From assembly GCA_025056455.1 (NCBI GenBank), contig JANWVY010000002.1, forward strand, positions 420,737 through 484,736: 64,000 nt of DNA, given 5' to 3'. The notes below the pieces were generated by a model that made no database searches, was not told where the DNA came from, and saw nothing but the letters and a program-made list of their open reading frames with translations. The stretch is from Bryobacteraceae bacterium (GTDB lineage Bacteria; Acidobacteriota; Terriglobia; Bryobacterales; Bryobacteraceae). Every line of letters starts with the position of its first letter. The first letter of the stretch is position 1. This document shows, piece after piece, positions 26,186 to 29,847 of this stretch. A program made the position numbers and the translations under genes.

Positions 26186-28526
26186 ATGTTTCGTCCTCTC
26201 TTAGCGACGTTTTGGCTGGGATTGCTGGCGGTGGCTTGGCTACAGGCTCAGACGACGTTTGGCATTATTCGCGGCCGCGTCACCGATCCTACAGGCGCTG
26301 CGGTCCCGAAAGTGCAGGTGGTGGTGACCAACACGGCGACGGGTATTTCTCGTGCGGTCACCACGGGCGAGGACGGGGCCTATGAAGCTGGGTATCTAGC
26401 GCCAGGCCCCTATTCAGTCACCGTGGAGGCGCCGGGGTTCCGGCGTTTTGTTGCGGATCAACTCACGCTCAACGCGAATGCGATCGTGCTCGTCGATTGT
26501 CCCTTAACGGTGGGCGATGTTTCGGCCTCGGTGACCGTGCAGGCCGGTCCTCCCTTGATCTCCACGGAAAGCGCTACCCTCAGGTGCTTGCAAATACTGC
26601 TGCTGCGTTTTGATGTCGGTGTTGGTGCGCAACTACAACCCTGTGAGCGGACCGGTAGATGGTCCGACCGTGGTGCGAGAGATGGGGCTGACCAACTTGC
26701 CCGCCGACTTGCCTCAGGTGGGCGCGATTCCCATTGTCAACATCACAAATTTTCAGACGATCAGCCAGATTGACTTTTCTCGCCCGGCGGAGATGATCTA
26801 CCAATGGCAAAACAATTTGTCGTGGATTAAAGGTCGCCATACGCTGAAGTTTGGGGGTGAGATCTGGCACAACTACGGGTCGAATTTCGGCGTTTCACCC
26901 TCGCGCGCCTACGGCAGCGTCTCCTTTACTGGGGCCTACAGCGGGTTCAGTTACGCAGACTTTATCCTCGGCATTCCCCGACAAGCCTCGCGTTCTTCGG
27001 CCGGCTTTGTAAAGATCAAGAGCACAAACTGGGATCAGAATTTCTTCATTCAGGATGACTTTAAGGCCACCCGCCGCCTGACGATCAACGTTGGGCTCCG
27101 CTACGAGTACAATCCTCCCTACGTAGAGCGAGAAGATCGCAACTACAACTTCAATCCCTTCACGGGACAAATGGTGGTGCCCACGGCCGAATCCAGGGAA
27201 AAGTTGTTTCCCGGTTTTCTGGCCAACAACCTCGTTCCCATTGTGACCGCTCAGCAAGCCAATCTTCCCGCGCGGCGCCTAGCCTTTGCTGATAGGAATA
27301 ACTTCGCGCCGCGGTTTGGATTCGCCTATAAACTCACGTCGGACAACCGCACGGTGCTGCGTGGCGCCTACGGAATTTTTTACGACTCCTTCACGGCAGC
27401 CTTGTGGAGAACGCTGGTGGGTGGTCCCTACAACGGCTCAGAGAGCACTCCGATCAACGTCATTAGTGGCGGCAGAGCTCTCTGGATGTGGCCGGATATG
27501 TTTCCCCGGACGCTCAATCAGGTGGGAACGGCGGCCATGGCTGGCGTTGATCCCCGGATGCGTCTGCCTTACACGCAACAGTGGACGATGACACTCGAGC
27601 GCGAATTCTGGAATATGGGCTGGCGCGCATCCTATGTAGGGAGTAAGACACACCGGCTGTCCATCACCCGCGACTTGAATCAGTTACAACCTTCGACCCT
27701 TCCCTTCAGTGTTTCGCGTCGTCCTTACCCGCAGTTGAGTACCGTCACCTATCGTGAAAACGCTGGAAATGCTTACTACAACGCCCTGATTGCCAGCGTC
27801 GAGAGGAAATACAAGGCGGGACTGCAATACCAAGTCAATTACACGTGGGCCAAAAATTTGACCGATTCCCATAACGAAGGCGAGGGAGGGGGTAGCCTCC
27901 AGAATGCCTACGACCGGAGGGCGGAGTGGGGCAACCACCAGTTCACACGAAGACACCGAATGACGGTTAACTCCATCTGGGATCTGCCGTTTGGCCGCGG
28001 CCAGAAACTCGCTCGCAGTGGCGTTCTGAGCTACTTGTTCGGGGGATGGTCACTGTCCACTTTCGGAATTCTGCAAACTGGAGCGTACTTCACACCCACT
28101 TTCTCCACGTTTGATCCGGCCAATATTGGAGCGGGCGGCGGTCGCCCGGACCGGATCGGCAGCGGGCGGTTGAGCCAGCCGAACTATCTCAACTGGTTTG
28201 ACAGCCGGGCCTTCCGCGTACCAGGCGACTTGGACGGCGACAACCGCCCGGACGTGAATGTGGGCCGGTTTGGCAATTCTGGAGTGAATATTCTCCGCGG
28301 CCCGGGCACCAAGGTGCTCAACGCAGGATTGTTCAAGCGCTTCCAAGTACGGGAAGGCTACCGGCTACAAGCCGAAGCCACCTTCACCAATGTGTTGAAC
28401 CACACTAATTTCGGTGTGCCGATCGCCGTGATCGACAACCCGGCGGCAGGCCGCGTGACCGCGACGCAGACGCTCGAAAGCGCTGGTCCACGCACGACAC
28501 GCTTCGGTTTGCGGCTCGATTTCTAG
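26186..28526 (+). pseudogene. Oar-like TonB-dependent receptor, internally deleted and frameshifted
   Basis: From ATG 26186 a signal peptide and a carboxypeptidase-regulatory-like domain are intact (IIRGRVTDPTGAAVPKVQVV; PGPYSVTVEAPGFRRF) up to LISTESATL at about 26578. The frame then goes out of register. The rest of the barrel is read from about 26601 in another frame (GRHTLKFGGEIW, NFFIQDDFKATRRLTINVGL, RTTRFGLRLDF at the end). The plug and the first barrel strands, normally some 250-300 residues between these two parts, are absent. A deletion plus frameshift is the simplest reading. The remaining barrel frame (638 codons) is free of stops, so the damage is recent or an assembly error. Confidence 0.75.
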
Positions 28527-28593
28527 ACATCCCAGCTGTGGGGCCCTTGCAAACTTGCCTCGAGCGCCCAGCTGGCGAGGGTCGGGAAATCTG

Positions 28594-28623
28594 TTGACGG
28601 CTTCCGACCACGACGTTTATACT
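28594..28623 (+). promoter_or_regulatory. Sigma-70-like promoter of the aromatic leader
   Basis: TTGACG (28594-28599), an 18-base spacer and TATACT (28618-28623). The hexamer ends eight bases before the leader-peptide ATG at 28632, so the leader peptide itself may be translated from an almost leaderless transcript, although GAGG at 28624-28627 is also present. Confidence 0.75.
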
Positions 28624-28631
28624 GAGGCTTC

Positions 28632-28685
28632 ATGGTTCTGATGTCTGCTCGCTACTGGTTCTGGTGGTATCCGGAAGCAGTGTGA
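28632..28685 (+). CDS. Aromatic leader peptide of the DAHP synthase attenuator
   Basis: ATG to TGA encodes MVLMSARYWFWWYPEAV, 17 residues. Six consecutive codons (28653-28670) specify Tyr-Trp-Phe-Trp-Trp-Tyr, sensing all three aromatic amino acids at once. It sits between a good promoter and an antiterminator/terminator pair upstream of the first enzyme of the shikimate pathway. The peptide is too short to have another obvious function. Starvation for a charged aromatic tRNA would stall the ribosome on these codons, which is the signal in classical attenuation. Confidence 0.85.
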   Translation: MVLMSARYWFWWYPEAV

Positions 28686-28735
28686 GTGGCGTTGGATCCT
28701 GAATTTATTTTCAAAACTGAACATCCAACCCACTC
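28684..28735 (+). promoter_or_regulatory. Antiterminator hairpin of the aromatic attenuator
   Basis: Bases 28684-28697 (GAGTGGCGTTGGAT) can pair with 28723-28735 (ATCCAACCCACTC): 13 base pairs with a single bulged C at 28690. The 3' arm contains the whole 5' arm of the terminator (28727-28735), so the two structures exclude each other. The 5' arm begins at the leader stop codon: a ribosome that finishes the peptide covers it, while a ribosome stalled on the aromatic codons leaves it free. Confidence 0.8.
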
Positions 28736-28760
28736 CTCGGTGAGTGGGTTTTTTATTTTG
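28727..28760 (+). terminator. Attenuator terminator before DAHP synthase
   Basis: AACCCACTC (28727-28735) and GAGTGGGTT (28742-28750) form a nine-pair stem with a six-base loop, followed by TTTTATTTT. It is a typical intrinsic terminator, placed 26 bases before the DAHP synthase start. Confidence 0.85.
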
Positions 28761-28785
28761 GGGACTTCGTTTTTGTGGGGACCGC

Positions 28786-29847
28786 ATGCTCGTAGCAATG
28801 GATTCATCAGCGAAGGAGTCGGACCTGCTTCAGGTCGTTGAGCACCTTCGTCAGGCAGGCTATCGGATTCACGTCATCGAACGCTCCGCCCGTGGCATCC
28901 GGATCGGTGCAGCGCCGTCCAACGGTCGTCCGGGCGATCTGGACGCCATCCGTCAGCTACCCGGCGTACAGCGAGCGGCGCAAATTCAAGCGCCGTACCA
29001 ATTCGTCAGCCGGGAATTCCGGCCGGAAAAGACTGTTCTCACCCTTGGACGGCCAGGATTCCCTCAAGTTCAAATCGGCGGTGACCAGTTTGTGATGATG
29101 GCTGGCCCTTGTTCGGTGGAAAGCGAACGCCAGATTCTGCAATGCGCTTTTGCCGTCGCTGAGGCAGGAGCGAGCATCTTGCGCGGGGGTGCTTTCAAGC
29201 CTCGCACCTCGCCATACGACTTCCAAGGACTCGAAGAGGAAGGGCTCCGTTTGCTGGCCAAAGCGCGCGAAGCAACTGGACTTGCCATCGTCACTGAAGT
29301 CATTTCAGAAAAAGACGTGGAGTTAGTGGCGCACTACGCCGACGTGATGCAAGTAGGCGCGCGGAACATGCAGAATTTTGCACTGCTCAAGGCCCTCGGT
29401 CGCTGCGGCCGCCCGGTCTTGCTCAAGCGTGGTATGAGCAGTTCGATCAAGGATTTGCTGCTCTCGGCCGAATATGTGGTGGCCCACGGCAACCCGGACG
29501 TCATTCTTTGTGAGCGGGGTATCCGCACCTTTGAAACGGCGACGCGGAATACGTGCGACATTTCAGCAGTCCCGGTACTCCATGAGCTGACGCACCTGCC
29601 CGTGGTCGTGGACCCGAGCCATGCCGCTGGCAAGCGCAGCCTCGTACCACCGCTCTGTAAAGCGGCAGTGGCCATTGGAGCAGACGGCATTCTGCTCGAG
29701 GCCCATCCTTCGCCGGAAGAAGCGCTCAGCGATGGTCCACAATCGCTGAGCCTGGATCAATTCCGGCAACTGATGCGAGAACTCGAAGGGCATTTGGCGC
29801 TCTGGAAGCAGTCGCGGACTTGCGCGGCGGCTGCGGCCGTGTCCTAG
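28786..29847 (+). CDS. aroF: 3-deoxy-7-phosphoheptulonate (DAHP) synthase, type I-beta with N-terminal regulatory domain
   Basis: A 353-residue enzyme condensing phosphoenolpyruvate and erythrose-4-phosphate, the first step to aromatic amino acids. Residues 1-70 form the ferredoxin-like domain seen in Thermotoga-type DAHP synthases, where it mediates Tyr/Phe feedback. The barrel follows, with [52 protein letters not shown] and [17 protein letters not shown] 28786 has GTGGGG just upstream; the frame is open back to 28744, but that would lie in the terminator. Control is inferred at two levels: attenuation by the aromatic leader and allosteric feedback. Confidence 0.95.

Follow-up and report, generated by a model that had tools for sequence, protein, structure and literature searches.

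The attenuators of the trp, phe and his operons follow a four-segment logic in which each leader senses one amino acid ahead of a terminal-branch operon, and in multivalent leaders of the ilvGMEDA type, several end products of the same branched pathway are represented by their codons. With regard to DAHP synthase, the aroR leader of Corynebacterium glutamicum, located upstream of aroF, was reportedly described by Neshat in 2014. In a review, aroR is characterized as a ribosome-mediated attenuator with a Phe-Tyr-Phe sequence upstream of aroF, on which Tyr was without effect (PMC11802643). Another system, termed uORFC-13-1, comprises a predicted uORF and a terminator before aroF, with 24 examples from Acholeplasma and environmental sequences, and its U run encodes at least one Phe; the same extract mentions that E. 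coli aroF had earlier been proposed to be under attenuation (PMC8632094). Leader ORFs on leaderless transcripts have been reported in Streptomyces lividans, where the targets named in the available extract are trpE, trpS, leuA, leuS, ilv, thrS, alaS and metN (PMC8079986). As for the Acidobacteria, a survey of short leader genes covers them through counts of distances and offers a hypothesis of reinitiation (PMC4833913). In other phyla, control of DAHP synthase through attenuation at an aromatic leader is already known.

Herein, an acidobacterial candidate of this kind is described from the window, that is, the whole stretch of 64,000 nucleotides of Bryobacteraceae DNA that was analysed. Its features are as follows.

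28594-28623, forward strand: sigma-70-type promoter, TTGACG, 18 nt, TATACT (read from the sequence; promoter scan)
28630-28664, forward strand: segment 1, part of the leader ORF, predicted to pair with 28671-28702 (1:2 hairpin) when ribosome-free (minimum free energy fold)
28632-28685, forward strand: leader ORF of 17 codons, MVLMSARYWFWWYPEAV (direct reading; conservation)
28653-28670, forward strand: putative sensing run Tyr-Trp-Phe-Trp-Trp-Tyr (direct reading; the stall model switches off at its end)
28684-28697, forward strand: segment 2, antiterminator 5' arm, GAGTGG-c-GTTGGAT, consensus GAGTGGYGTTGG (direct reading; alignment)
28723-28735, forward strand: segment 3, antiterminator 3' arm, ATCCAACCCACTC, of which 28727-28735 doubles as the terminator 5' arm (direct reading; covariation)
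28742-28759, forward strand: segment 4, terminator 3' arm 28742-28750, leading into a T tract to 28759 (direct reading; covariation; scan)
28786-29847, forward strand: DAHP synthase of type I-beta, carrying a ferredoxin/ACT-like domain at its N-terminus (profile and structure matches)

The logic of this locus is that of the trp, phe and his leaders, but it sits at the first enzyme of the pathway and carries several aromatic codons; against the Rfam family Trp_leader (RF00513) it scores 19 bits versus a gathering score of 41, which places it outside that family. Similar to the ilvGMEDA-type leaders, it mixes the codons of end products, which are branched-chain in the latter and aromatic in the window. 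It shares with aroR the combination of an aromatic-codon leader and a terminator before DAHP synthase that marks the class, whereas aroR, compared here through the available part of its description, belongs to another phylum and is presented there without mention of Trp. The same gene lies behind uORFC-13-1, for which the extract, used likewise as a description, mentions no Trp or Tyr codons. The S. lividans leaders are ORFs on leaderless transcripts, as the window leader probably is, but no DAHP synthase is among the targets named in that extract. A literature search for an acidobacterial or three-aromatic leader returned nothing closer, which is weak evidence because subscription papers were poorly covered, and the putative mixed sensing of Phe, Tyr and Trp at DAHP synthase would therefore be new as far as the search reached.

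The downstream gene was assigned by the profiles NF006421 (454.7 bits; cut-off 335) and TIGR01361 (383.4; cut-off 267.75) and by the domain PF00793, with PF18152 staying below its cut-off, and its best solved-structure matches are 4grs and 1rzm. The ORF on its upstream side carries an outer-membrane beta-barrel domain (PF25183), and downstream an ORF without a Pfam match is followed by a PfkB kinase; no other aromatic-pathway gene was found among these neighbours. The genome (4.98 Mb, 29 contigs) holds another DAHP synthase-family match (L001, G000:C6:3425-4306), the N-terminus of which reads by eye like type I-alpha, as well as a further match of the family (L003) that lies, by eye, behind a pyrG-like gene and so probably encodes KDO8P synthase; no ORF with at least three aromatics in nine codons occurs in the 700 bases upstream of either. 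Trp auxotrophy, suggested by the lack of a PF04715 match, was rejected, since two sets of genes are present: a chorismate-binding ORF of 722 aa (L186, PF00425), which reads by eye like a fused TrpE-G, and trpB-trpA-tyrA-like ORFs (L185), recognized by PF00290 and for the rest by eye. No leader was seen by eye before the TrpE-G-like gene.

The initial annotation had described a promoter, a 17-codon leader with six aromatic codons in a row, a terminator followed by a T tract, and an antiterminator of 13 pairs and one bulge sharing a strand with the terminator, and direct reading located all of them at the same positions. The -35 box TTGACG (28594-28599) and the -10 box TATACT (28618-28623) agree with the consensus at 10 of 12 bases across the 18-nt spacer, and a scan of 28400-28900 returned one site versus a mean of 0.2 in shuffles, where such a promoter is thus rarer. 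The ORF extends from ATG (28632-28634) to TGA (28683-28685), and its run contains one Phe, three Trp and two Tyr; the aromatic score of 6 for this upstream region was matched by 3 of 3000 shuffles. In the antiterminator, 28684-28697 pairs with 28723-28735 and C28690 is bulged, the 5' arm starting at the second base of the leader stop codon, in line with the earlier description of an arm that begins there. The terminator joins 28727-28735 to 28742-28750, with the T-rich stretch at 28749-28759. The leader region folds at -56.1 kcal/mol versus -35.0 +/- 3.4 for shuffles (z -6.25; 0 of 200 equal or better), and the terminator pattern in 28400-28900 (one found versus a shuffle mean of 0.6) is by itself not above chance. 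The hairpin pattern CCCACTC-N3..9-GAGTGGG occurs at a single place in the window genome.

Conservation was assessed in 70 orthologue upstream regions (30 + 40, including that of the window), from which G051 and G058 were left out because contig ends truncate them. An ATG ORF of 8-35 codons with at least four aromatics in nine was found in 51 of the remaining 68 (2.4% in shuffles; 0/68 in reverse complements), and 39/68 reach at least five in nine, compared with 0.33% of shuffles. A looser leader-plus-terminator test was passed by 53 of the 70, one of which (G063) is a doubtful TTG-start ORF, and the 17 without a recognized pair include some regions cut by contig ends. The leader precedes 35 of the 39 best named loci (L105-L143), including those of Candidatus Sulfopaludibacter (L109) and Bryobacter sp. 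(L133). A covariance model extending from segment 2 to the T tract matches 100 of 150 Bryobacteraceae-family genomes at E 0.01 or better, a count for which the gene downstream of each match was not individually checked; phylum-wide, it matches 29 of 396 genomes, mostly weakly and with elements of other kinds. Inspection of 30 phylum-wide loci yielded six aromatic leaders before DAHP synthase-like ORFs (L075, which is the window, L076, L077 and L079-L081), the last three of which represent three genomes of family f27 with an NWFWW(P/S)W(H/R)F leader. Among the best matches outside the Bryobacteraceae family, 7 of 20 upstream regions have the leader and 13 have none. More distant DAHP synthase matches (about 49-55% identical) have it in 1 of 20 cases, where it precedes the best match of its genome, and it is lacking in all 16 second copies among these 20; the idea of a leader common to all DAHP synthase copies was rejected on these two counts. 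As judged from the upstream sequences compared, the leader follows the orthologue of the window DAHP synthase and not every copy.

Further comparisons were based on 79 distinct leaders from 150 regions (70 G-handle and 80 named, overlapping in genomes), with entry limited to at least four aromatics in nine codons and a CCCACTC-type terminator with at most two mismatches, so that percentages among them are conditional and terminator variation is understated. A -10 box lies 7-10 nt 5' of the AUG in 66 of 78 leaders (shuffles 6.1%; control offset 3/78), one of the 79 being left out for its short upstream sequence, and it is accompanied by a TTG-type -35 in 54; in the window, the -10 box ends 8 nt from the AUG. 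A Shine-Dalgarno-like 4-mer was detected in 3/78 leaders (shuffles 8.7%). The window is one of these three, and its GAGG (28624-28627), between the -10 box and the AUG, lies upstream of the expected transcription start and hence outside a leaderless transcript. Judging by the -10 spacing, the mRNA from which the window leader ORF is translated is probably leaderless, or nearly so. This apparently leaderless leader, the segment 1:2 pairing and an Arg between aromatics in most relatives are three features absent from the initial annotation.

Both hairpins were aligned in 45 of the 70 rows; among those left out, no terminator match was seen in 13 and no segment-2 match in 10, and the last two were an empty row and a duplicate. 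The antiterminator has 11 aligned pairs, of which six changed on both sides, with 95.8% of 495 cells paired, and none of 500 shuffles was as high on all five measures. For the terminator (nine pairs, four changed on both sides, 98.5% of 405 cells paired), the double-sided change was reached by 1/500 shuffles and the measure of further pair types by 89/500, and no shuffle came as high on the remaining three. Segment 3 takes part in both stems, so that a change in it must be matched in three places; among the 70 of the 79 leaders with a clear segment 2, coordinated changes across segments 2, 3 and 4 were observed from A-T-A to G-C-G in G061, G071 and L111 and from T-A-T to C-G-C in G047 and L137, which amount to fewer than five independent events, as L111 and G071 look related. 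In the same 70 leaders, the natural sequence pairs with segment 2 better than the mean of its synonymous recodings in 58; the effect is modest (mean 0.79 natural versus 0.70 recoded), and its Wilcoxon p of 5e-9 is no true probability, since the sequences are related. The earlier reading had been staked on conservation in relatives, and it holds up there, with the aromatic run kept in the 51/68 regions mentioned above and the alternative pairing accompanied by compensatory changes in both hairpins.

The effect of a stalled ribosome was modelled by folding the transcript cut after segment 3, with the ribosome masking the bases from 18 nt before to 12 nt after the start of its A site, and the output is the probability of 2:3 pairing, P(2:3). 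At this default footprint, the window gives a P(2:3) of 0.99-1.00 whichever of the six aromatic codons occupies the A site; the value is 0.92 for Pro14, 0.14-0.32 from Glu15 (codon 15) to the stop and 0.00 ribosome-free. All six aromatic codons are on in four of five footprint sizes and five of the six in the smallest; the two smaller 3' footprints also leave Glu15 on (0.95, 0.83). Within the folding model, the switch after the sensing codons is thus clear in the window. Across the 79 leaders, 75 reach a P(2:3) of at least 0.5 on an aromatic codon and 62 fall below 0.5 at the stop, where 17 still favour the antiterminator. The results are mixed for L144, L147, L149 and L179, and likewise in family f27, where L080 is on at the run and L079 and L081 are off over much of the run and on just after it. 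The ribosome-free state, in which only 28 of the 79 leaders have a P(2:3) below 0.2, depends on segment 1, the part of the ORF that pairs with segment 2.

An ORF with end-product codons, hairpins that share a strand and, in the folding model, a switch set by ribosome position were all found, as in ribosome-mediated attenuators. Taking the anatomy, conservation, compensatory changes and modelled switch together, we interpret 28594-28759 as a four-segment, ribosome-mediated transcription attenuator, with a probability of roughly 0.87. RNA polymerase would start at the leader AUG or no more than a few bases from it, as the -10 spacing suggests, and the ribosome would load on the leaderless 5' end. 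When Phe-, Tyr- or Trp-tRNA is short, the ribosome is expected to stall in the run 28653-28670, where it would cover segment 1 and leave segment 2 exposed, such that 28684-28697 could pair with 28723-28735, the terminator would be blocked and DAHP synthase would be made. With all three charged tRNAs present, the ribosome would proceed to the stop, where it would cover segment 2 or let 1:2 pair; with segment 2 unavailable, the terminator 28727-28750 would end transcription near 28755-28760. In the window, a ribosome-free transcript would also be terminated, through the 1:2 hairpin. The stalling mechanism put forward by the initial annotation is thereby supported, in line with the model at its default footprint, in which the antiterminator is free whichever of the six aromatic codons holds the stalled A site.

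That all three amino acids count as signals, as the proposed three-way sensor has it, is an inference which we consider somewhat more probable than its opposite. Phe occurs in 79 of 79 leaders, Tyr in 75 and Trp in 70; all three are present in 66 (Trp is lacking in 9 and Tyr in 4), and in 46 all three stand at codons that are switched on in the folding model. The same attenuator could instead sense mainly Phe, or some single aromatic, and tolerate the other aromatic codons, a variant within the main explanation that we regard as unlikely without dismissing it. The presence of Phe in every leader agrees with this variant, as do the response of C. glutamicum aroR with its Phe-Tyr-Phe to Phe and not to Tyr (PMC11802643, available part) and the enrichment of TTT, which makes up 172 of 252 leader Phe codons but 25% of the 272 Phe codons in 29 DAHP synthase genes, where it is the rarer one. 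It is at odds with the window leader, in which Trp and Tyr codons outnumber the one Phe codon and the model is on at each. The Y-W-F-W-W-Y of the window is unusual; in the 59 of the 79 leaders that can be anchored on the core Arg, a choice by which both neighbours of the Arg are necessarily aromatic, the commonest core is F-S-F-R-F-W. Trp is the residue found most often at the second place after the Arg (40/59), which also speaks against a response to Phe mainly. An Arg stands between two aromatics in 62 of the 79 leaders, the window not among them, and its codon is CGA in 38 of the 62 compared with 6% of 671 Arg codons in the 29 DAHP synthase genes; a fourth sensed amino acid, a slow codon or an RNA constraint may be the cause. 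From the start of the core Arg codon to segment 2 the median distance is 29 nt (10th-90th percentile 25.5-35, n=56), and the stop codon falls before, in or after segment 2 (10th-90th percentile -17 to 8, n=70); when quartiles are compared (27 to 34 and -2 to 6), both spacings are about equally tight. The frequent Arg and its CGA codon are what a general sensor of translation rate would exploit, in which the ribosome is delayed at the run and the CGA, and the gene is induced whenever translation is slow or any amino acid is short. The window model, on (at least 0.62) wherever the ribosome stalls up to Pro14, is compatible with it. Such a sensor has no need of leaders with 33% aromatic residues (4.9% in DAHP synthase), and the sole Arg of the window leader precedes the run, with none inside it; we consider it improbable.

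Control without translation, in which the choice between the hairpins falls to a T-box, a riboswitch or an RNA-binding protein and the ORF plays no part, would fit the observations that conservation is higher in segment 2 (GAGTGGYGTTGG) than in CCAA, its upper partner, as could be expected of a protein site, and that 28/79 leaders favour the terminator in the ribosome-free model (P(2:3) below 0.2, clearly off). Against it, the ORF, the -10 spacing and the aromatic codons are all conserved, and a scan of 28400-29000 found no Rfam family at its gathering score and no T-box covariance model among the four matches with E up to 1. A T-box, a riboswitch or a known Rfam leader was rejected on these scores, and the explanation as a whole appears very improbable. 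A chance ORF before an ordinary terminator might be imagined, given how often short ORFs occur and given a terminator pattern that does not by itself stand out from shuffles; it is contradicted by the conservation of the leader relative to shuffles and reverse complements, by the covariation in both hairpins, by the triple changes and by the link to the orthologue, and its probability is negligible. The ribosome-mediated attenuator is accordingly retained as the preferred reading.

Beyond the Acidobacteriota, aromatic leaders occur at four Verrucomicrobiota loci (L159, L167, L180 and L181), where the terminators behind them differ in sequence. The model keeps L159 and L181 on along the run and turns them off near the end, L180 behaves likewise with a borderline value at the stop (0.50), and L167 stays on, which suggests that the arrangement recurs. 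Two Bacillota loci, L182 and L183, possess leader-like ORFs with AAYYYYYFFF and YAFAYNYYYYF, whose stops lie about 200-300 nt 5' of the matched DAHP synthase start; L182 is on through most of the leader and L183 mostly off, and neither switches. Several other acidobacterial leader-like elements were encountered before different genes. On the minus strand before an anthranilate synthase I gene (PF04715, PF00425), L084 (f17, before 1-1482) has a leader-like ORF with YNYAWRWYSSTRW and a terminator, and its folding model switches inside the aromatic run. Attenuator-like hairpins precede a 3-dehydroquinase/shikimate dehydrogenase gene in L087 (f44), with the ORF MRRFQVRWHWHHG, and a PLP enzyme reading like TrpB in L083 (f15), where aromatics are few in the short ORF and the model stays off for the most part. 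In L092 (f66), on the minus strand near 1501-1583, the short ORF MTTSIRYAWWWYASLREVATD and a terminator stand before a presumed downstream frame without a Pfam match. In L091 and L096 (Acidobacteriota, f11), a nitrite/sulfite reductase gene (PF01077, PF03460) is preceded, around 1455-1607, by short ORFs rich in Cys (MACRMCCCDG..., MTMTCCACCRG...) and a CCCACTC terminator, a possible cysteine attenuator.

In E. coli, the first enzyme of the aromatic pathway is governed by isozymes and repressors. If the present reading is true, a single cis element at the first enzyme of a branched pathway senses each of the three products of that pathway. The wider proposal, for which the odds appear even, is that a leaderless trivalent attenuator, an OR gate for Phe, Tyr and Trp, is standard at the entry to the shikimate pathway in Bryobacteraceae and some other Acidobacteriota, with similar leaders in Verrucomicrobiota and perhaps in Bacillota, and that the conserved, slow CGA-Arg within the runs of most relatives may time the ribosome against RNA polymerase. 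A survey of 2010, in its available part, lists almost no predicted Acidobacteria attenuator with an associated function and states that it knew of amino-acid leader peptides from Proteobacteria and Actinobacteria and, until its own case in the Firmicutes, from no other group (PMC2965389). The window element would provide an acidobacterial attenuator that is widely conserved, has a clear target gene and works by a mechanism that can be tested, and an alignment and a covariance model now exist for an element that falls below every Rfam gathering score in the window. Meanwhile, these loci hint that leader peptides, Trp- and Cys-rich ones included, may be in wider use in a phylum with few regulatory studies.
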